In this document: one piece after another, positions 510-32,864 of the stretch
Numbering within the stretch: the first letter of the stretch is position 1
How the letters are laid out: each line of letters starts with the position of its first letter
NCBI RefSeq assembly: GCF_004167665.1
Contig: NZ_SEWE01000020.1
Coordinates: forward strand, 1 to 64,000
Length of the DNA stretch: 64,000 nt
Source of the DNA: Hymenobacter persicinus
GTDB lineage: Bacteria; Bacteroidota; Bacteroidia; Cytophagales; Hymenobacteraceae
Direction: 5' to 3'
Made by a program: the position numbers and the translations under genes
Notes under the pieces: generated by a model
What the model saw: the letters and a program-made list of their open reading frames with translations, nothing else
The model's database searches: none
Told to the model about the DNA's origin: nothing

Positions 510-1442
510 ATGGATTTGCACTACGTTCGTCAGGGTAGCGGCCGGCCGCTGCTGCTGGTTCACGGCATCGGCGGCAGCTGGCGCTCCTGGAATACCATCA
601 TGGGTCCTCTGGCTGCGGAGCGCGAGGTCTTGGCCGTCGACCTGCCCGGGCACGGGGCCTCCCCCGCCCTGGCCGGCGAAAACTCCATCGGCACTTTCGC
701 CGACGCGCTGACCGCCTTTCTGACCGAGCACGACTTGCTGGGCATCGACGCGGTGGGCTCCTCCATGGGGGCCCGGCTGGTGCTGGAGCTGGCCCGGCGC
801 GGGGGCGTGCTCGGGGCCGTCGTATCCCTCGACCCCGGCGGCTTCTGGCAGGGCTGGCAGATTCCGGTGTTCTACCACTCCGTCGCCGTTTCGCAAAAGC
901 TGGTGACGGCCCTGCAGCCGGTGATGCCCGCGCTGATGCACTCGGCGGTGGGCCGCACGGCGTTGCTGCCGCAGTTTTCGGCCCGGCCCTGGGCCCTGGA
1001 TGCCCAGCAGTCCACCGACGAAATGTACACGTTGGCCCACACGCCCGTGTTCGGGGAAATGCTCGACCAGCTGGCCCACGGCGAAGTACAAAAGCCCGCG
1101 CCCCGAGGCAGCATCACCGAGCCGCTGCTCATTGGCTGGGGCCGCCAAGACCGGGTGTGCCTACCCAGCCAGTCCGAGCTGGCCCTGATCAAGTTTCCCG
1201 ACGCCCGCCTGTACTGGTTTGAGCACTGCGGCCACTTCCCGCAGTGGGACCAGCCCGCCGAAACGGTCCGCCTGATTCTGGCCGTCACCGGCCGCCGCGC
1301 CTTTACCGACGCCGACCTTGCCCCGCGCAAAAAACCTGCTTCAACTGCGCCCACCGCTCCCCGAACCGCGGTAATCGGGGCCGGGCTGGCCTTGCTGGCG
1401 GGCGGCATCTGGCTGCTGGCCCACCGGAAAAAATCAGCGTAG
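510..1442 (+). CDS. Alpha/beta hydrolase with C-terminal membrane helix
   Basis: A 310-aa alpha/beta-fold hydrolase. The oxyanion-hole segment LLVHGIGGS lies near residues 15-23, the nucleophile elbow is GSSMG with Ser85, an acid candidate sits in GRQDRV, and the catalytic His is in EHCGHFPQWDQP near residue 240. After the domain comes a Pro/Ala-rich linker and one hydrophobic helix (about residues 285-305, AVIGAGLALLAGGIW) followed by HRKK, which suggests tail anchoring in the inner membrane. The substrate is unknown; such proteins are esterases, lipases or C-C hydrolases. It stands alone, divergent from the partial GH2 gene and ending at a strong terminator. Confidence 0.75.
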   Translation: MDLHYVRQGSGRPLLLVHGIGGSWRSWNTIMGPLAAEREVLAVDLPGHGASPALAGENSIGTFADALTAFLTEHDLLGIDAVGSSMGARLVLELARRGGVLGAVVSLDPGGFWQGWQIPVFYHSVAVSQKLVTALQPVMPALMHSAVGRTALLPQFSARPWALDAQQSTDEMYTLAHTPVFGEMLDQLAHGEVQKPAPRGSITEPLLIGWGRQDRVCLPSQSELALIKFPDARLYWFEHCGHFPQWDQPAETVRLILAVTGRRAFTDADLAPRKKPASTAPTAPRTAVIGAGLALLAGGIWLLAHRKKSA

Positions 1443-1468
1443 CCTCAGGTGTCGAAAAGCCATAAAAA

Positions 1469-1500
1469 AGCCCCGCCGGGAGTCCGGCGGGGCTCTTTTA
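1469..1500. terminator. Rho-independent terminator (bidirectional)
   Basis: Perfect 11-bp GC-rich stem (AGCCCCGCCGG / CCGGCGGGGCT) with a GAGT loop. An A-run precedes it and a T-run follows, so it can serve both the hydrolase (+) and the convergent flavin oxidoreductase (-). Confidence 0.85.
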
Positions 1501-24280: not shown

Positions 24281-24994
24281 ATGACCCTCTCTTCCCTGCT
24301 GGGCTACGCACGGCTACTCTGGCAAAAGCACCGCAGACTGTTGCTAACCCTGTGCCTAGGGTTTATCGGCCCGTGGTTCGTATTTATCAAGGTTGGGCAG
24401 GAAGTCTGGGAAGACAAAGGGTTTCCCGGCGACCAGCTGATTTTGCGGCTGCTCCACCGCTTCGGCAGCCCCGGTCAGGATGCACTGGCGGTGTGGCTGG
24501 CCCAGGCCGGCGGCACACGCTGGACACCGTTGGTAGAAGCGGTGGTGCTGGCCGGTCTGTTGCTGGCCCGGCAACGGCGGGCGGCACTGTTTTTCCTGCT
24601 CTCAGTAGGTGGGGCCGGGGCATTAAATTTATTTGCCAAGTTACTACTGGCCCGCGCCCGCCCGGACTTTTGGGTATCCATTGCCCCAGAAACTTCTTAC
24701 AGCTTTCCCAGTGGGCACGCCATGGGCGCGGCGGCCCTAGCCCTGACGCTGGGTATCTTACTCTGGCCCACCCGGGGCCGCTGGGTAGCCGTGCTGCTAG
24801 GGACTGCTTGGGCGCTGCTCATGGGCTGGTCGCGCATGTACCTGGGCGTACATTTTCCTTCCGACGTGCTGGCCGGCTGGGTCGGTTCCGTCGGCTGGGT
24901 TTGGGGCGTACACCTGCTGTTTTCCCGCTTTGCCCTGGCCCTGCGCGGCCTATGGGGCGATACCCGCTCCTACTGGCTAAATCGTCCTAGATAA
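24281..24994 (+). CDS. PAP2-family phosphatase, integral membrane
   Basis: A 237-aa membrane phosphatase of the PAP2/undecaprenyl-pyrophosphatase type. Signature blocks: K-x6-RP as KLLLARARP, FPSGHAMG, and SRMYLGVHFPSD (SR-x5-H-x3-D). About five to six membrane helices flank them, as in PgpB/YbjG enzymes. The substrate may be a lipid or isoprenoid pyrophosphate. I prefer the ATG at 24281 over the upstream TTG. It is the last gene of the three-gene row. Confidence 0.85.
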   Translation: MTLSSLLGYARLLWQKHRRLLLTLCLGFIGPWFVFIKVGQEVWEDKGFPGDQLILRLLHRFGSPGQDALAVWLAQAGGTRWTPLVEAVVLAGLLLARQRRAALFFLLSVGGAGALNLFAKLLLARARPDFWVSIAPETSYSFPSGHAMGAAALALTLGILLWPTRGRWVAVLLGTAWALLMGWSRMYLGVHFPSDVLAGWVGSVGWVWGVHLLFSRFALALRGLWGDTRSYWLNRPR

Positions 24995-25073
24995 TTACTT
25001 GGCGTCCCCCGTCGTTCTATCAGCTACCCCCTACTCAAATGCTCTTCGGGACGGATTAGAGTTAGGCCGTAAA

Positions 25074-25325
25074 TCAGCTCTTATTAAGCTTATCTACTGC
25101 CTCAATTCCAGGACAGTTCATTAGCTCCTGTAGAGGAATCTCAAATGCCCGAGTGAGGGAAATCAATATGTCAAGGGTCACCGAGAACTTGGCCAATTCG
25201 AGGCGTTGGATAGTGAGCTTTGAAACATCCGCCATATCAGCTAGGGCCTGCTGGCTAAGCTGTCGTTGCTCCCGTAGCCGGCGCACGTGTAGCCCAAAAA
25301 CTATAAGACCGGCCGGATTTTTCAC
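25074..25325 (-). CDS. XRE-family repressor
   Basis: An 83-aa DNA-binding protein with a complete HTH_3 domain: LREQRQLSQQALADMADVSKLTIQRLELAKFSVTL, followed by ILISLTRAFEIPLQELM. It begins with GTG. It diverges from the gene at 25422, and the perfect 16-bp palindrome at 25359-25374 in between is a likely operator for it. Confidence 0.8.
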   Translation of the reverse strand: MKNPAGLIVFGLHVRRLREQRQLSQQALADMADVSKLTIQRLELAKFSVTLDILISLTRAFEIPLQELMNCPGIEAVDKLNKS

Positions 25326-25358
25326 CAGCGCAAGGTCTACTGGGCTTCAAGGCGTTTA

Positions 25359-25374
25359 GATACACATGTGTATC
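25359..25374. promoter_or_regulatory. Palindromic operator in the divergent XRE promoter region
   Basis: GATACACATGTGTATC is a perfect 16-bp palindrome, 34 bp from the XRE start codon and upstream of a -7-like TAGCTTTG (25394-25401) of the rightward gene. It covers the expected -33 position of that promoter, so binding would block it. Confidence 0.6.
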
Positions 25375-25421
25375 CAAAACAAGGAAATATCAGTAGCTTT
25401 GAGTCTAACTTGTTTAGCTAT

Positions 25422-25847
25422 ATGGTAAAAATGGCCTCAGAACTGTCGCGGCATGAGCTTGATGACCTTTGCACGCAATATCAGAAGCAGCTAGAAGGCC
25501 CAATGCGGCAACAGCAGATTGCCATAAATTGTGCTAGCGACTACTTCAGCAGCATTCCTGAATCTGAACGGTCTCCCGAACTGTCTGCCTTACAAGAAAT
25601 CTTCTCGGAAGCAGCAGGAGACCCGCAGTGGAAAGACCTGCTCGAAGATCTAACAATCATGAGAGAGGATTTTTCGACACCAGAGCTGCGAGACGAGTTC
25701 TGGTTCGGCTTTCAGCATATAATCTATATGCGGGCGTGCCTAATGAACCTGTACTACCCCCTAGCGCAGAAAATGGCGGCGCAGTATGGGTTCAAACTGC
25801 CTGATGAGGCGAACACCATCCCTCGCCCAAGCACAGCCGCTGCCTGA
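25422..25847 (+). CDS. Hypothetical protein paired with XRE repressor
   Basis: A 141-aa protein I do not recognise. It looks mostly helical and charged (ELSRHELDDLCTQYQKQLEG, then LEDLTIMREDFSTPELRDEF) with no signal peptide or membrane helix. The start is the ATG of MVKMASELSR, 20 bp after the TAGCTTTG -7 box. Divergence from an XRE gene across a palindrome resembles toxin-antitoxin or phage-control layouts, but no toxin fold is visible. Confidence 0.55.
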   Translation: MVKMASELSRHELDDLCTQYQKQLEGPMRQQQIAINCASDYFSSIPESERSPELSALQEIFSEAAGDPQWKDLLEDLTIMREDFSTPELRDEFWFGFQHIIYMRACLMNLYYPLAQKMAAQYGFKLPDEANTIPRPSTAAA

Positions 25848-25920
25848 CACCTTGGCCTCAATACCCTTGTTAAGACAGATTAGGGTGCCTATGTAGGTCT
25901 ATAGAAGCCTGTACTATTCC

Positions 25921-26193
25921 ATGAAAGTATTACGCACAGCTTTTTTTGCAGCATTGCCCTACTTGGTAGGGTTGCTCTTCTTTCTTATTGAATGGGGTAT
26001 TGGTGCGGTTATACTGACCTACCTCCTACAGTGGCTCGGTTGTGGAGTTACCACGCAGCGCGTTGTAGCAACTATTTGGTTGTTATTGGCCTCCTTTAGG
26101 GCGGCAGCACGCCACAGCCGCAGCAAACGCAATAAGATGTTGCAGATGTATATAGATGGCGAAATCGACACTCATCCTGACGACGTGAAATAG
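25921..26193 (+). CDS. Small membrane protein
   Basis: A 90-aa protein with two hydrophobic segments (about 7-35 and 45-60) and a basic then acidic tail (RHSRSKRNKML...DTHPDDVK). I do not recognise it. It follows the 25422 gene by 73 bp on the same strand and may share its transcript. Confidence 0.45.
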   Translation: MKVLRTAFFAALPYLVGLLFFLIEWGIGAVILTYLLQWLGCGVTTQRVVATIWLLLASFRAAARHSRSKRNKMLQMYIDGEIDTHPDDVK

Positions 26194-26217
26194 AATGGAG
26201 ATCCGTAAGGGCCAAGT

Positions 26218-26312
26218 AAAAAACAGACCCACCCGGTCTGACAATTGCGTTTCCATTTGCCTTAACTCCCCCCCTATTTTCATCAGCTACCCCGCGCCGG
26301 TGAGTAGCTCTT
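26218..26312 (-). repeat. Conserved 3'-untranslated/terminator repeat, copy 2
   Basis: Resembles 9231-9324. On the minus strand it reads GGGGTAGCTGATGAA..., then a perfect hairpin CAGACC-GGGTG-GGTCTG and a T6 run, so it ends the CapH/CapP-like operon. Both stem bases differ from copy 1 while pairing is kept. Confidence 0.6.
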
Positions 26313-26395
26313 GGATACATATACTATTTCAACATATTCACTAACAGTCAGCAGGTAATTCCCCTGGTAACTATGCACCAATTGTCTATCATAGG

Positions 26396-26989
26396 CTAAG
26401 GTCGCAGGTAAGCCAATTGACGTTTTACACCTGTTCTATTAATGCGGAGCTGTACCATTTGAGCACTAGCTTGATAATGCTCCATAATTGTGGCATTGTC
26501 CCATCCCTTACTTAGTGCGAAAAGCAACGCAGCTCGGGGTAACAAGAGCGTCCACCCGAGGCAGTCAGCTTCTGACTCCTGCTCCTCCGGGTAAAGCCGC
26601 ATGTAATCGGGCAGCCCATTGCCTGTATCGATGGCAGACAATTCATGTCCACAAAGAATGTGTGCCACTTCGTGCATCACATTGCTTTGTTGCCGTGCAG
26701 GTGAATGTACCCCGTTGTGAATGATAAGGTGGGTTGACTGTTGAGACGGGTGATACGGCATAGTAAGCGCCGACCAGTGCTTTCCGCTCGGATGACAGAG
26801 TGTTGTTAAGCTCTTCGATGAAAGCCCAACCAACTGCTGAGCCACGACGACCTTAATGCGCAGGTGCTCACAAAGCCGGAAAGCACATAAGGGCTCGTAC
26901 GGCCGTAGACCCAGCTCTTGGCGCAAAGACTCAGCTTTTCGCTCTGCTTTTGCGGCGAAACCGTGGGGGAGTTTGGACTTCGCTGCCAT
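26396..26989 (-). CDS. ImmA/IrrE-type metallopeptidase (CapP-like CBASS regulator)
   Basis: A 197-aa zinc peptidase with the ImmA/IrrE motif HEVAH at residues 106-110 (NVMHEVAHILCGHE) and a downstream acidic motif EEQESEADCLGW that can supply the third zinc ligand. In known CBASS loci, CapP cleaves the repressor CapH after DNA damage. The gene lies 15 bp after an XRE gene and this pair diverges from the CBASS genes, the CapH-CapP arrangement. Role inferred from that family and position; the same fold also regulates ICE and phage repressors, so control of the island is an alternative. Confidence 0.8.
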   Translation of the reverse strand: MAAKSKLPHGFAAKAERKAESLRQELGLRPYEPLCAFRLCEHLRIKVVVAQQLVGLSSKSLTTLCHPSGKHWSALTMPYHPSQQSTHLIIHNGVHSPARQQSNVMHEVAHILCGHELSAIDTGNGLPDYMRLYPEEQESEADCLGWTLLLPRAALLFALSKGWDNATIMEHYQASAQMVQLRINRTGVKRQLAYLRP

Positions 26990-27004
26990 TAGGACGCTAT
27001 TTAA

Positions 27005-27358
27005 TTAGTGCCCAATAGCTTCTTGACTCACTTGACGATAGGCAAGTTGAATCATTTCTATCAGCGCTTGTGCCGTCGCCTTGGGCAAAACGCGGTCGGC
27101 TCGCAGGTGAGCCACTATTTTATCGCTTTCGGAGGCCGTAGCGCCTTCGTCGGTAGTAGTGAATGTATCGGTGGGGACGTTTAACCATTTGCAGAGCTGC
27201 AAGAAGGTATTCACGTCTGGAACGGAGCCTTGCTCAATTCGAGAGAGAGTAGAGGCGCTGACTTCGCCTATCTCCTGGGCTACTGCTCGTAACCCCCGAT
27301 TCGCTCGCTTGGATTTCACCATCGCGGCAAGTTTGTCAGTGTCAAGTTGTACGCTCAT
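27005..27358 (-). CDS. XRE-family repressor (CapH-like CBASS regulator)
   Basis: A 117-aa protein with an N-terminal helix-turn-helix: LAAMVKSKRANRGLRAVAQEIGEVSASTLSRIEQG, then VNTFLQLCKWLNV, and a helical C-terminal tail (about 75-117) where cleavage by the adjacent peptidase could occur. I use the ATG giving MSVQLDTDK; an upstream in-frame Met at 27514 would pass through the operator region. It is the upstream gene of the regulator pair and diverges from the patatin gene. Two matching dyads lie in the intergenic region. Confidence 0.8.
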   Translation of the reverse strand: MSVQLDTDKLAAMVKSKRANRGLRAVAQEIGEVSASTLSRIEQGSVPDVNTFLQLCKWLNVPTDTFTTTDEGATASESDKIVAHLRADRVLPKATAQALIEMIQLAYRQVSQEAIGH

Positions 27359-27395
27359 GATGGGCTGGTGGCATTGTTGCGCAAAGTAAACATTT

Positions 27396-27440
27396 GTTTC
27401 ACCGGTGGAACAATTATTGGAGTCGTTTCGTTCGTGAAAC
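27396..27440. promoter_or_regulatory. Pair of operator dyads between CapH-like and CBASS genes
   Basis: Two 16-bp imperfect palindromes share the form GTTTC-N6-GRAAC: GTTTCACCGGTGGAAC (27396-27411) and GTTTCGTTCGTGAAAC (27425-27440), 29 bp apart. On the minus strand the first lies between a TTG and a TACTTTG -7-like element of the repressor gene. They are good candidates for CapH-like operators controlling both directions. Confidence 0.6.
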
Positions 27441-27535
27441 AGTCGTATTGCAAAGTAGACAAGCTTATCCATTATACGCATGCCACAATGCAATGACGGC
27501 CTTTCCCTGTACAAAAGAAACCCAGATACTCTGAA

Positions 27536-28627
27536 ATGACTCCTACTACTCCTTCGCTTGAGAAACCATTTCGCATTCTATCCCTTGATGGTGGGGGGAT
27601 TCGCGGCCTTTATACCGCTCGATTCTTAGCCGACCTGGAAGCGCAGCTGCAACGAGACGGCCATGAACAAACTTCTCTTTATCAACACTTCGACTTAATC
27701 TGTGGTACCTCAACCGGCGGCATTATCGCTTTGGCGCTGGCATTAGGCATGCCGGCTCGGGAACTCGTTCACCTGTATTCCCACCACGCCAAGGACATTT
27801 TCGGCGCAGGCCGTAACCTCGTTTCTTGGCTGGGTACGGCCCGGTACTCCAATAAGAATCTGGAGGCGCTGTTGAAAGAAAAGTTTGCCCCCTACTCTGC
27901 AGACGGAAATACCCGGCTGGGACACGCCCGCACACGGGTGTGCATTCCAGTGTTCAACGCCGTGTCGGGCAAGGTGAGCGTTTACAAAACCTGCCACCAC
28001 AAAGATTTCATTCGGGACTATCAGATGCCGGCCTATCAAGTTGGCATGTCCACGGCTGCGGCCCCTACCTATTTTGACCCCTATAGCCCGCGTTACCTAG
28101 CGGACGTAACGGAAGAGGAGGTTATCATTAGCCACAACGTAGACGGCGGCATTTTCGCCAACAACCCCGCCCTTATTGGCCTGAATGAGGCCCACGGCTG
28201 CTTGGCTGTGCCGTGGGCCAATGTTAGACTGCTCTCCATTGGCACCGGCCGGCAGGCCTTCACTGAGCGCCCTGAGCAACGGCGGTGGGGCCTGTTTTAC
28301 TGGGCCAACAAAATGCGCATCCTAGACATGATACTTCATGCCCAAGCCGACCACACCGATAGCATCTGTCAAATGCTCAGTCGGGGAGCTGGCCGAGAGA
28401 CCCCGCAAGCTTTTTTGTACGAGCGGGTTCAGTTCGACTTTCTCAATAAACAGGAATACGTCGATCTAGATACCACTTCCCCAGCAAAGCTCACAGTTTT
28501 GCAGGAGCGGGCTAGCAACCAGTTCCGCGAACGTGGCCGACACATCATTGATAATTTCTGTACTGAGCCGACGGCTGCATTTGCTCCCTGCCGCTCACTG
28601 AGCAAGCCCGCGCTGGTAGCTGCTTAA
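27536..28627 (+). CDS. Patatin-like phospholipase, CBASS effector (CapV-like)
   Basis: A 363-aa patatin-type phospholipase. The oxyanion loop is GGGIRG (residues 19-24), the nucleophile Ser59 lies in GTSTGG, and the catalytic Asp203 is in NVDGGIFANNPAL; the dyad is intact. In CBASS, CapV is activated by the cyclic nucleotide made by the linked cyclase and degrades the bacterial membrane, killing the infected cell. The cyclase gene follows after 18 bp on the same strand, so they form an operon. Length fits CapV (about 360 aa). No transmembrane segment is visible. Confidence 0.92.
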   Translation: MTPTTPSLEKPFRILSLDGGGIRGLYTARFLADLEAQLQRDGHEQTSLYQHFDLICGTSTGGIIALALALGMPARELVHLYSHHAKDIFGAGRNLVSWLGTARYSNKNLEALLKEKFAPYSADGNTRLGHARTRVCIPVFNAVSGKVSVYKTCHHKDFIRDYQMPAYQVGMSTAAAPTYFDPYSPRYLADVTEEEVIISHNVDGGIFANNPALIGLNEAHGCLAVPWANVRLLSIGTGRQAFTERPEQRRWGLFYWANKMRILDMILHAQADHTDSICQMLSRGAGRETPQAFLYERVQFDFLNKQEYVDLDTTSPAKLTVLQERASNQFRERGRHIIDNFCTEPTAAFAPCRSLSKPALVAA

Positions 28628-28645
28628 CAATTAATTCCTTTTTTT

Positions 28646-30088
28646 ATGGCCAACTGCAACAAGTTGTTTCTGGACTTTAACCAGAACCTGAACGTGCTTA
28701 CCACGAAAAAAGCCAAGCTCAGCATTTCCAAAAAGGAGCTTCGCCGCAAAATCACCGACCACTTTAAAGAACACCACCCCGACTACAAGCCGAAGTTCTT
28801 CACTCAGGGCTCGCAGAAGCTGGGAACGGTGATTCGCATCCATGACGACACCTGTGATCTGGACGATGGCGTGTACTTTTTGTGCAAGCCCGACGTGACG
28901 GCTACCACCTTGCAGCGTTGGGTATACGAGGCCGTTAAAGACCACACCAGTGAGCCAGCACAGTGGCGTAAGAAATGTATTCGAGTAACCTATAAGGCCG
29001 ATTATCACATTGACTTGCCCGTTTATTACATGCTGGAAGACGAAGACCATCCTCACCTGGCAGTGAAGAACGAAGGTTGGGAAGACAGCGACCCAAAGGA
29101 GTTTATCACGTGGTTTCGCAAGCAGCGCGATGCCAAGGGCCAACTGGTACGGTTGGTGAAGTACCTGAAATCTTGGTGCGACTGGTGTGCACACAAGATG
29201 CCCAGTGGGTTGTGCATGACGGTGCTGGCGGAACGCAACTTCGTGGCCAATGACCGAGACGACTGCGCCCTGCGCGCCCTCCTCAAAGCCATTCGGAGCG
29301 ACCTAAAACGGGAATGGAAGTGCACGATGCCTACCACGCCCCAAGATGACTTGCTGAGCAAATACTCTGACGAGCTGAAGCGGAATTTCTTCGATGCGCT
29401 GGACGAGTTTATCGAGGATGCTAATGAGGCGGTAGACGATGAAAAAAACCAGTTGAGCGCCAGCAAACTTTGGCGGCACCACCTAGGCTCACGCTTCCCT
29501 GACGGGCTCGACGAGGACGTGGATGCCAAAGAAGCCAAGCTGCGCGCCTCGGCCGTGCTCATCAACAGCGGGCGCGCAGCCACAACAGCCGCTGTCGGTA
29601 TCACGACCCACCGCTATGGTGTGCCTAACCAAGCACACCGCTTCGATGGAGGGCGTCGTTTTCATCCACTAGCGCGACAGGGCAAAGACTGGTTTGCCGT
29701 TTTTCATCGGGAAAAGCAGCTGGTTGAAAGGCACTATCCGACTTTTCGGTGCCAGCTTAAGCGCAATGCGTTGAGCTGTCGCGGGCAGGTTTCCTCACCT
29801 GGTGGCGAAGGCACTTACCATATCAAGATTGATTACGCTCCGGGCCGGCCCCCAAAAGTGTTCGTGCTCAATCAAGGTGTTGAGTACCGGCACCATGCCC
29901 TTACGCACTTCTATCCGGCCGATAACAGCCTATGCCTTTACTATCCCGGTGACCTGACCTGGTCTGACAAACATCATCTGTATGATAAGACTATTCCGTG
30001 GCTTGCCGAGTGGCTGGTTTTCTACGAGCTGTATCAGATTACCGGTCGCTGGGAAGGCCCAGCCGTGGACCATGGCCAGCACAGTTAG
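28646..30088 (+). CDS. CD-NTase (DncV-like) fused to an E2-like conjugating domain
   Basis: A 480-aa CBASS protein of two parts. Residues 1-300 are a DncV-type nucleotidyltransferase: QGS at 54-56, the metal-binding CDLDDG with Asp71/Asp73, the third carboxylate Asp123 in YHIDLPVYY, and LWRHHLGSRFP near 275-285; the catalytic set looks complete. Residues ~345-472 match the E2 fold in order: LSCRGQVSSP (strand), GTYHIKIDYAPGRPPKV (compare ...FPxxYPxKPPKV), HFYP near 421, Cys430 in NSLCLYYPGDLTW with Trp439 (compare GSICLDIL...WSP), and the C-terminal helices PWLAEWLVFYELYQITGRW. E2-only enzymes occur in type II-short CBASS as separate genes. Here no separate E1, E2 or JAB gene is present. Product nucleotide unknown. 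Confidence 0.85.
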   Translation: MANCNKLFLDFNQNLNVLTTKKAKLSISKKELRRKITDHFKEHHPDYKPKFFTQGSQKLGTVIRIHDDTCDLDDGVYFLCKPDVTATTLQRWVYEAVKDHTSEPAQWRKKCIRVTYKADYHIDLPVYYMLEDEDHPHLAVKNEGWEDSDPKEFITWFRKQRDAKGQLVRLVKYLKSWCDWCAHKMPSGLCMTVLAERNFVANDRDDCALRALLKAIRSDLKREWKCTMPTTPQDDLLSKYSDELKRNFFDALDEFIEDANEAVDDEKNQLSASKLWRHHLGSRFPDGLDEDVDAKEAKLRASAVLINSGRAATTAAVGITTHRYGVPNQAHRFDGGRRFHPLARQGKDWFAVFHREKQLVERHYPTFRCQLKRNALSCRGQVSSPGGEGTYHIKIDYAPGRPPKVFVLNQGVEYRHHALTHFYPADNSLCLYYPGDLTWSDKHHLYDKTIPWLAEWLVFYELYQITGRWEGPAVDHGQHS

Positions 30089-30134
30089 AAACCGGCCATC
30101 GTAAATAGCTGCTCGCTATTGTTCCTTTATAGAT

Positions 30135-30157
30135 TGTACCCCAGAACGTACCCCAGA
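30135..30157 (+). promoter_or_regulatory. Probable integrase arm-type binding sites (right end)
   Basis: TGTACCCCAGA at 30135 and CGTACCCCAGA at 30147, 12 bp apart, like the left pair at 5354/5366 and in the same orientation on the plus strand. They sit 35-57 bp inside the right att repeat. Confidence 0.55.
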
Positions 30158-30164
30158 AACCAAA

Positions 30165-30196
30165 AAACCCGCTTTACAGTACTGTAAAGCGGGTTT
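30165..30196 (-). terminator. Island-supplied replacement terminator for ssrA
   Basis: A perfect 32-bp palindrome (arm AAACCCGCTTTACAGT) immediately after the tmRNA 3' end on the minus strand, followed on that strand by a T6 run. Unlike the displaced original (5189-5220) it belongs to the island, so transcription of tmRNA still ends properly after insertion. It overlaps the first 5 bp of the att repeat. Confidence 0.7.
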
Positions 30197-30222
30197 AAAG
30201 TGGAGCTGCAGGGAGTCGAACC
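30192..30222. repeat. Right attachment site of the ssrA island (att direct repeat)
   Basis: Identical over 31 bases to 5216-5246. This copy is continuous with the intact tmRNA, so the element recreated the ssrA 3' end when it integrated. Confidence 0.9.
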
Positions 30223-30568
30223 CTGGTCCAGACAAGGAAACCGTCGAGCTTTCTACGTGCGTATCTACGCTTGAATTTTCGTGGTACTCCGGGCGCGCAT
30301 CAGGCCCGTAGAGTCCCCTTAGATGCAGTTGGGTTTCGCCAGAAGGTCACACCTCCCTCCTGACTATCTTCTACTTACGACGCCCCGTGCTCACCCGTGT
30401 AAAAGAAAACGGATGCGGGACGATGACAATGCTTAGTACCTAGACTAGGCAGCCATGGCGTAGCTATACTCGCCAGTTATTGTTCGAATGATTTGATCAC
30501 AGGAGATTCATTCAACTCCTGGCACGCTTACTCGCGACCTGCGCAAGCTGTCAATTCCGGTCAGCCCC
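30201..30568 (-). ncRNA. ssrA: tmRNA
   Basis: A one-piece tmRNA of about 368 nt that rescues stalled ribosomes. The 5' end GGGGCTG pairs with CAGCTCC at the 3' end as acceptor stem (one G-U pair), and the T arm GGTTCGACTCC is next to it. The discriminator A is at 30201 and CCA is not encoded. The tag frame (30445-30474) reads GEYSYAMAA followed by TAG; the ending AA is the usual protease signal. The gene is the insertion target of the island. Confidence 0.93.
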
Positions 30569-30683
30569 AAATGGTAAAGAACGATGCCCGCCACGGTAGC
30601 AGCGGGGTGCGAATGTACGCACATCGGGGAGAAAACGTTGGGACCCGCCCAAATTGTTCCGGCGGGCCCCACCGTTTCTTACC

Positions 30684-32864
30684 TCATTTTACGGCCACTT
30701 TTGCCGGCTGAAAGGCGGACGCCCCGGTCTGCCAGAGCCCAAAAGCCAGCAGGTCGGCCATGACCTCAAACTGCTTCTGCTTGGAGTCGCCGATGCCGTG
30801 GCCGGCTTCGGAGTCGGTGAAAAACAGCACGGGCTTGTCCGAAACGGTGCTGGCCTGCAGGCGGGCGGCAAACTTGGCCGGCTGCCAGGCAATAACACGC
30901 GGGTCGTTGAAGCCAGCCGTGATGAGGGCCGCCGGGTACTTCGTATTGGGCTGCAAGTGCAGGTAGGCATCCATTTCGAGCAGGGCCTTGCACTCGTCTT
31001 CCTTTTGCACGGTGCCAAACTCCGGCACGTTCACGGGGCCGTTGGGCGAGTTTTCCATGCGCACCGCGTTCAGGCAGCCTACTTCGGGCATGGCCGCGGC
31101 AAACAGGTCGGGGCGCTCCGTCATGGCCCGGCCGATAAGGATACCGCCGGCGCTGCCCCCGTTAATGGCAATTTTACCCAGGCCGGTGTAGCGGTTTTTC
31201 ACTAGGTAGTCGGCGCAGGCAATGAGGTCTTTCCAGGTGTTGGGCTTGGTCGTTTTCTGCCCGGCTTTGTGCCAGGCTTCGCCCAGCTCCCCGCCCCCGC
31301 GCACGTGGGGCACGGCCAATATGCCGCCCTGCTGGGTCCAGAGCAGGTAAGGCGGGTAAAAGAACGGGCCGGTGCTCTTGGCGTAGGCTCCGTAACCGAC
31401 CATCAGCACTGGCGCCGAGCCGCTGCGGGGCGTGCCTTTTTTGTAGACCAACGACAGGGGCACCCGCACGCCGTCGTGCGAGGGCACCATGAGCTCTTCT
31501 ACTACCAAGTCGGCAAACTCGGGGTAGGCCGCTTCCGACGACAATGACTCGGGCACGAAGCGGTGGCCGGCGGAGGTGTAGCGGTAGCGCGTACGGTCGG
31601 TGGTCCAGCCCACGGCCGTCACCCACAGGTCCGGCGACTGAGCATTCTTGGTTTCCAGCGTGAGGTTGCCGGCCGCCGTGGGCAGCTTGATTTCCTGCGC
31701 GGCCTTCGTGCCCCGGGGCACGAAGTAGAGCTTGGCGGCCACGCCGTTGCGCATCCGCACGAAGTACAGCCCTTCACTGGTGGCCTTGAGCTGCTCGTCC
31801 TCAATCGACTCGTCGGCACTTTCCGGCACCAGCACCTCGGCCGTAGCCACGCTCGGCCGGGCCACGGGCATCCGCATAATTTTCTGCCGGGGCGTGTTTT
31901 TGGACGTGGTGAAGTAGATGTACCGGGCGTCGCTGGCAATGTTGGTGGCCTCGTCGGCGGGCTTAAACAGGGGCTGCCAGGGCACGTTGGGCTTATCCAG
32001 GGCCGCCGCCGGGGCGTAGTAAGCGTACAGGTACCGGTCGACGGTGTAGAGCATGCCGATGGCCAGCTTGGAGTCCCGGTCGACGAAGGCGAAGGGGTAG
32101 TCGGCGGGCCCGATGCCCAGTTTGGGATAGAGGGCGGCGGAGAAAACCGGCTGGTCCTGGCTCTGGGCGGTGCCCACGCGGTGCAGGCGGCACTGCATGT
32201 TCTGGCGGGCGGCCATGTCTTTCAGGTCGCCGTTGTTATAGGGCGTGTAGGTCAGGGTCTGGTTGTCGGGCAGCCAGTCGCCGCCGCCGCGGGTGAGCAG
32301 CAGCTGCTCCGGATACAGCTTTTTGGCGGGCACGTCCAGGATGAGCATGCGGCCCAGCTCGGCACCTTTCTCCGTGATACCAAACGACACCTTGGAGCCA
32401 TCCGGGCTGGGCGCAAAGCCGCTGATAGTGTACACCTTGCCGGCCTCATAGGACTCAGGGTCGAAGAGCAGCCGCTCGGTGCCCTGAAACCCGTCGCGGC
32501 AGTAGAGCTTGGGCTGTTGGTCCTGGGGGCGGGTTTTGAGGTAGAAGTAACGGTTGTTGTCGGCAATGATCAGGCTGGCGACGCGGGCCGCCTTACGCCC
32601 GTCAATTTCTACCATTTTATCGATGAGCCCCTGCCGGCCGGGAATACCGTTGAGCGTCTGGCGGGCGTAGTCACTCTGGGCCTTCATCCAGGCGGCCACG
32701 GCCGGGTCGGTGAGGTTTTCGAGGTTGCGGTAAGGATCCGTTACCGGCACGCCGAAGTAAGTGTCGGTGGCGGGCCCCGAGGGTGCGGCGGCGGGCCCCG
32801 ACTGCGCCTGGGCAACGGAGCCGGCCAGCAGACCAGCGGCAAGTAGTAGAAAACGTGGTTTCAT
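30684..32864 (-). CDS. Prolyl oligopeptidase (S9A)
   Basis: A 726-aa exported prolyl oligopeptidase that cuts short peptides after Pro. Signal peptide MKPRFLLLAAGLLAGSVAQA, then a seven-bladed propeller (TDPYRNLENLTDPAVAAWMKAQ at the start is characteristic) and the catalytic domain near the C-terminus: Ser in NGGSAGG, Asp in AGFNDPRV, His in SEAGHGIG. Size fits the family (about 700 aa). It stands alone between ssrA and dnaX, on the same strand as ssrA. Confidence 0.92.
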   Translation of the reverse strand: MKPRFLLLAAGLLAGSVAQAQSGPAAAPSGPATDTYFGVPVTDPYRNLENLTDPAVAAWMKAQSDYARQTLNGIPGRQGLIDKMVEIDGRKAARVASLIIADNNRYFYLKTRPQDQQPKLYCRDGFQGTERLLFDPESYEAGKVYTISGFAPSPDGSKVSFGITEKGAELGRMLILDVPAKKLYPEQLLLTRGGGDWLPDNQTLTYTPYNNGDLKDMAARQNMQCRLHRVGTAQSQDQPVFSAALYPKLGIGPADYPFAFVDRDSKLAIGMLYTVDRYLYAYYAPAAALDKPNVPWQPLFKPADEATNIASDARYIYFTTSKNTPRQKIMRMPVARPSVATAEVLVPESADESIEDEQLKATSEGLYFVRMRNGVAAKLYFVPRGTKAAQEIKLPTAAGNLTLETKNAQSPDLWVTAVGWTTDRTRYRYTSAGHRFVPESLSSEAAYPEFADLVVEELMVPSHDGVRVPLSLVYKKGTPRSGSAPVLMVGYGAYAKSTGPFFYPPYLLWTQQGGILAVPHVRGGGELGEAWHKAGQKTTKPNTWKDLIACADYLVKNRYTGLGKIAINGGSAGGILIGRAMTERPDLFAAAMPEVGCLNAVRMENSPNGPVNVPEFGTVQKEDECKALLEMDAYLHLQPNTKYPAALITAGFNDPRVIAWQPAKFAARLQASTVSDKPVLFFTDSEAGHGIGDSKQKQFEVMADLLAFGLWQTGASAFQPAKVAVK

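Follow-up and report, generated by a model that had tools for sequence, protein, structure and literature searches.

The window analysed here, a stretch of 64,000 nucleotides from Hymenobacter persicinus, holds a CBASS cassette whose cyclase and E2 domain are encoded in one open reading frame. The features of the locus are listed below by their position in the window.

26382 to 30083, no strand assigned: block of four genes shared with the related loci L003-L005, at about 89% DNA identity
26396 to 26989, minus strand: CapP-like zinc peptidase (ImmA/IrrE, M78) of 197 aa; PF06114, E 9.3e-13; HEVAH (HExxH at residue 106)
27005 to 27358, minus strand: CapH-like helix-turn-helix protein; Pfam HTH_3, E 4.4e-7
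27536 to 28627, plus strand: CBASS patatin-type phospholipase effector (CapV-like) of 363 aa; GTSTG at residue 57
28646 to 30088, plus strand: fused cyclase-tail-E2 protein of 480 aa, a single open frame
28646 to 29542, plus strand: CD-NTase (CdnB-like) part, residues 1-299; match to PDB 7LJO with Z 39.2 and rmsd 1.3 over 286 residues
29624 to 29653, plus strand: retained E2-target tail PNQAHRFDGG, residues 327-336, with a predicted cut next to Gly335
29690 to 30073, plus strand: E2 domain, residues 349-476; PADLOC PDLC00862, profile and structure matches
29933 to 29935, plus strand: codon of the candidate catalytic Cys430
30198 to 30568, minus strand: tmRNA gene, its 3' end facing the cassette; a neighbour outside the system

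The frame at 28646-30088 runs through 480 uninterrupted codons, and the proposal of the initial annotation that a CBASS cyclase and an E2 domain are fused in one protein is confirmed as an observation. Eighteen bases separate this gene from the effector gene of the operon, a CapV-like patatin that matches NCBIfam NF041079 with 340 bits (cut-off 200) and PADLOC PDLC00758 with an E-value of 9e-94. The helix-turn-helix and peptidase genes run divergently from this pair. The CapH-like gene is likely to start at the ATG at 27358 (MSVQ...), as it does in L003, and a longer frame with a TTG start runs from 27514. Helix-turn-helix and M78-type peptidase domains are found beside CBASS, and the PADLOC capP match of this peptidase is weak (E 8.7e-5).

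Outside the four-gene block, the window between 20 and 36 kb is unmatched in L003-L005. The 3' end of the tmRNA gene is a possible insertion hot spot. No convincing direct repeat of the kind left by tmRNA 3'-end integration was found within 24900-31000, and no integrase was seen by eye among the reading frames listed for 20-40 kb. The initial annotation had seen no E1 or JAB gene nearby, and none was seen in the cassette. A search of the genome (134 contigs, 99.8% complete) returned no Prok-JAB and a lone ThiF match, a frame of 389 aa on another contig; no E1 or JAB partner was found for the system, as is characteristic of type II-short CBASS. The same genome carries a broken second cyclase-E2 gene (L002, contig C46, around 1480-1700) that retains the junction NQFHRFYGGTRFHPL and adjoins a reading frame that looks, by eye, like a recombinase.

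The cyclase half matches PF21654 (E 1.3e-20), PF18144 (E 4.6e-11) and the NCBIfam family NF041078, 'CBASS cGAMP synthase', with 231 bits against a cut-off of 150. It has the QGS motif (residues 54-56) and the catalytic residues Asp71, Asp73 and Asp123 expected of a CBASS CD-NTase. The earlier description of the enzyme as DncV-type is borne out for these motifs and not for the clade: in the predicted model of the full protein (mean pLDDT 90.2), the cyclase part is closest to Bacteroides fragilis CdnB (7LJO, Z 39.2), which places it nearest the CdnB clade rather than DncV.

The E2 half is invisible to some of the standard domain libraries; Pfam and NCBIfam scans reported no match for it, and operons of this kind may therefore be labelled as simple CBASS. 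The PADLOC E2 model PDLC00862 matches residues 343-476 (E 3.8e-42), and chain B of 8HSB, the Serratia E2, is recovered (E 6e-28) with a profile built from 32 aligned tail/E2 rows. When residues 318-480 were modelled (mean pLDDT 80), the best solved match was the Serratia E2 8yjy_B, with Z 11.6 and rmsd 3.4 over 133 residues; Foldseek gave an E-value of 1.8e-6 for the same pair. Next come eukaryotic UEV, UBE2S and UFC1 structures with Z values of 8-9, and all 50 entries among the structural matches listed are, judged by their titles, E2/UEV proteins or complexes that contain one. The domain has the E2 (UBC) fold.

The E2 landmarks named in the initial annotation lie at the residues that it gave: APGRPPKV from residue 398, HFYP from 421, Cys430 within NSLCLYYPG, and Trp439. 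Among the 32 aligned rows, Tyr391, His421, Cys430, Leu431, Trp456 and Trp469 are invariant. All 71 unique frames that bear an E2, drawn from 142 loci and aligned to a profile made from frames of this kind, have both Cys430 and His421. This is an E2 of the CdnG-E2 family with its conserved cysteine. A missing E2-fold match and a variable Cys430 had been named beforehand as the outcomes that would overturn the assignment, and neither was observed.

What does this family of E2 act on when it is encoded by a separate gene? The C-terminal ends of frames that precede a separate E2 gene were collected, giving 52 unique ends (45, plus one each from L148-L154; L147 repeats one already counted), after five further E2 groups without an upstream partner frame had been dropped. 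The partners are 48 CD-NTases, recognised by iterated profile search, and four Pycsar cyclases recognised by PADLOC. An aromatic residue followed by Gly lies within the last 12 residues of 47 of the 52 ends, compared with 7.9% of random 13-mers from long frames. In two more (L023 and L046) the residue before the Gly is acidic, and the Gly motif is missing from three (L028 and L078, both Pycsar, and the L085 group). The motif Gly is the last residue in one of the 49 motif-bearing tails; it is followed by one residue in 27, two in six, three in six, four in five, and five to eight in four. Three further tails (L010, L011 and L034) end in a second Gly. The nearest split relatives of the window protein, L010 and L011, encode a 337-aa cyclase that ends in HRNYGG and a stop codon, followed directly by the ATG of a 142-aa E2. 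In these two split systems (521-1486, minus strand) and in L147 (2889-3746), a second CD-NTase-like gene that lacks the tail follows the E2 gene.

The four cyclases beside a ThiF gene that were chosen as controls from the plasmid list all end in Ala or Gly and lack the motif. A C-terminal Ala or Gly is the cyclase end reported for Cap2 systems in one study (PMC10097602).

The cyclase of the solved CdnG-E2 complex, SmCdnG, has the C-terminal end NTFYGE, at residue 407. Work by Yan and colleagues from 2024 is said to describe processing of the cyclase C-terminus by the E2. In a review, a table gives the site of E2-dependent cGASylation as Y405, just before the tail Gly, citing Yan 2024 (PMC12135389). 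If so, the residues after the tail site are removed in the Serratia system. Conjugation of cyclase to cyclase has been proposed for the E2-only system (PMC11153139). The pairing of tail and E2 also occurs outside CBASS. In L023 (393-1932, plus strand), L028, L049 and L078, a Pycsar cyclase (PADLOC PycC, E 3.7e-120 to 2.6e-130 for L023, L049 and L078, and 2.1e-112 for L028) precedes a separate E2 that belongs to the same family, and NQPHRFHYEG is one example of the cyclase tails.

In the window protein, the corresponding sequence NQAHRFDGG is internal and lies 95 residues before Cys430. The initial annotation had noted the lack of a free C-terminal Gly on the cyclase; this is literally correct but overlooks the E2 target tail retained at the junction (331-HRFDGG-336). 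The aromatic-Gly-x cyclase end is present but internal, and Asp precedes the Gly. Among 18 unique fused frames, one of which is a fusion to a PLD-like domain and not to a cyclase, the Gly is kept in 16, at 91-95 residues before the catalytic Cys; L012 and L013 retain NQPHQFF without it. A profile built from the tails of separate-E2 systems alone (38 unique 9-mers) gives its highest score to the junction in 16 of the 18 fused frames and its second highest in L012 and L025. The tail of the Hymenobacter family, represented by nine unique sequences, reads HRF[D/Y]GG. The position equivalent to Tyr405 is occupied by Asp, which is not aromatic, in the window protein and in five of the eight others, and by Tyr in three.

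Confidence in the position of the tail is low in both predicted models (pLDDT around 64 in the full model and below 50 in the shorter one), which therefore lend no support to a cis geometry. Isolated DSSP bridge residues in the full model, at 333, 422, 429 and 473, raised the possibility that the tail docks beside Cys430 through bridges 333 and 429. This reading was withdrawn, since in the shorter model residues 422-423 and 428-429 form strands and the tail is left unplaced; these two segments probably pair with each other.

The fusion is not confined to this genome. Seven contigs of separate records carry a fusion of the window type at 86-95% identity, two of them incomplete, and the named relatives among them are Hymenobacter. 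Within the family to which the window belongs, it is present in nine of 204 genomes, counting the window genome and one copy that lacks its N-terminus; the two sets probably overlap. When 12 coding sequences, nine of them unique, were compared, pN/pS was 0.05 for the cyclase, 0.22 for the linker (residues 300-327) and 0.09 for the E2 domain, falling to 0.00 at residues 420-435. It was 0.13 for the tail at 328-338, 0.06 for its core at 331-336 (HRF[DY]GG), and 0.05 for the segment at 339-356. By this comparison the fusion in Hymenobacter is under purifying selection. Strong conservation is not peculiar to the tail, for residues 339-356 are as conserved.

Related fusions exist elsewhere in the order and the phylum. 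They include L012 and L013 (477 aa), L053 (492 aa), and a 545-aa type found in L024, L112, L113 and L114, with a more distant member in L115 (549 aa). In the family of genome G233, five of 222 genomes have the 545-aa type of fusion, L115 included. In L021 (1489-2598, minus strand) a PLD-like domain (PF13091) and an E2 of the same family are joined in one protein by way of an HRNYGG tail, and the domain scan reported no cyclase domain in that frame. Has the fusion arisen once or several times? The E2 tree requires four changes, two of them forced by its starred branches. A single fused clade is not rejected on the E2 tree (AU p 0.118), nor is a clade that unites the window type with L012 and L013 on the cyclase tree (AU p 0.115). 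The difference in N-terminal partners (CdnB-like, 545-aa type, L053 type and PLD) suggests repeated fusion or partner swapping. No relative was confirmed in a viral contig collection, the single match from a phage collection is distant and concerns the cyclase part, and the six rows examined out of 12 plasmid rows listed (142 records) have two genes each.

A free E2 might in principle be translated from an internal start. This was discarded: the window gene has no ATG beyond codon 228, and between 115 and 60 codons before the Cys there is no in-frame ATG, GTG or TTG common to all of the eight Hymenobacter sequences examined.

On balance we favour, with modest confidence and from sequence and fold, a one-chain, E1-free version of E2-only ('type II-short') CBASS, in which self-cleavage in cis or in trans would be followed by conjugation and by activation of the patatin. 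The target of Cys430 in the E2 domain would be a peptide bond adjoining Gly335, most likely that between Asp334 and Gly335, on the tail of the same or of a neighbouring molecule. The chain would break between cyclase and E2, leaving the C-terminus of the cyclase as a thioester on Cys430, formed without ATP or an E1. The cyclase would then be passed on, the acceptor being a lysine that probably belongs to another cyclase; the conjugated cyclase would produce a cyclic dinucleotide, which would switch on the patatin and so kill the infected cell. The E2 would thus treat the tail as in two-gene systems, with the E2 domain instead of a short end peptide as the leaving part. Since conjugation through the tail requires the chain to be cut, self-cleavage is the central prediction of this model. 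Retention of the tail inside the fusion makes an internal peptide bond a plausible substrate for the E2. Also consistent with the one-chain model are the domains and their fold, the conserved Cys and His, the operon, the lack of JAB with ThiF found only elsewhere, and the fact that the E2 half is most like that of the Serratia CdnG-E2 pair. From these features we infer that the fused protein is cleaved, conjugated and activated, and that it takes part in defence.

A more general form of this proposal, which we put forward tentatively and with some doubt, is that a precursor cyclase carrying its own E2 cuts an internal aromatic-Gly or Asp-Gly bond and is conjugated without E1 or ATP, and that tail and E2 make up a portable self-processing cassette. 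Its portability is suggested by the occurrence of tail and E2 with the four Pycsar cyclases, where the E2 is separate, and in the fusion to the PLD-like protein of L021.

Could the chain instead stay whole? Fusion might serve to keep cyclase and E2 equal in amount and close together, the tail remaining uncut and serving for docking, and the E2 would then gate the cyclase or modify some other protein. Some of the evidence agrees with this. The Asp at the Tyr405 position in most of the unique Hymenobacter sequences and the absence of the Gly from L012 and L013, which are nonetheless intact fusions, both argue against a fixed cut site, and the segment beyond the tail is conserved as much as the tail. 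An uncut chain accounts poorly, however, for the presence of Cys430 and His421 in every unique E2-bearing frame and for the near absence of amino-acid change around the cysteine, and the solved relative of this E2 acts on a cyclase tail, according to the published account. We consider an uncut scaffold unlikely, although it deserves to be taken seriously. It is far less probable that another protease, of the host or CapP-like, separates the halves and that ordinary two-gene type II-short action follows. There is a peptidase gene in the same cassette, and the linker before the tail changes fastest among the parts compared; but ImmA/IrrE-HTH pairs also accompany unfused systems, the peptidase therefore not being specific to fused ones, and a cut outside the tail would leave the cyclase without the right end.

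It is more improbable still that the fusion is degenerate, its E2 half a remnant with no enzymatic role. Such genes do decay, as the broken second copy in the same genome attests, but the window gene is intact and the low pN/pS of its E2 half holds over nine unique sequences. Nothing was found that speaks for an artefact of assembly or sequencing that joined two genes, and this has hardly any probability left, because a frame error or mis-assembly is ruled out by the same fusion in separate contigs (seven records) and genomes (nine of 204 in the family).

The question of how E2-only CBASS can do without an E1 is a young one, and a fusion with an internal target site offers a single-gene test system for E1-free, E2-driven cutting and joining. 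If the favoured one-chain reading is true, fusion would be possible in E2-only systems, as the tail site can lie elsewhere than at the C-terminus, and would be unexpected in Cap2 systems, where the target site is the C-terminus. The tail motif also provides a sequence signature for finding more E2 substrates, including some outside CBASS.

In the literature searched (chiefly text passages of openly available papers), no description of a cyclase-E2 fusion was found. The initial annotation had left it open whether the fusion was unreported; in databases, at least, it has a precedent. The PADLOC profile PDLC00816 (542 positions) spans CD-NTase, tail and E2 in one model and matches L024 (397-2034) over 5-545 with an E-value of 2.7e-249. 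It differs in representing another type of CD-NTase, L024 being 26% identical to the window protein, and in its label, which reads only 'Cyclase' and may cause such operons to be mis-typed as E2-less.

Among solved structures, the closest cyclase is Bacteroides fragilis CdnB (7LJO), with 48% identity over 286 residues; the solved chain has 341 residues and no E2 domain. The Cap2 (E1-E2) type II CBASS of Jenson et al. (2023) resembles the window system in that the C-terminal end of a CD-NTase is the target of an E2 Cys. It differs in having an E1 domain, a C-terminal Gly or Ala on the cyclase, and Cap3 (JAB). E1 and JAB were not found here, and the window system lacks the E1-E2 protein, Cap3 and the free C-terminal Gly or Ala of the Cap2 type. 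The Serratia marcescens CdnG-E2 system (type II-short; 8HSB, 8YJY) shares the family and fold of the E2, has a cyclase tail of the N/H-x-F-Y-G-x form and is described as having E2 only. By contrast, its two proteins are separate where the window has one chain, its cyclase is CdnG and not CdnB-like, and in the window protein the tail is internal, with Asp at the Tyr405 position (Tyr in some relatives). Type II-short systems encode cyclase and E2 in separate genes, and the window has one open frame; it is therefore filed as a variant of type II-short and not as a standard member. E2-only CBASS is already known, and the fused arrangement is a variant of it.
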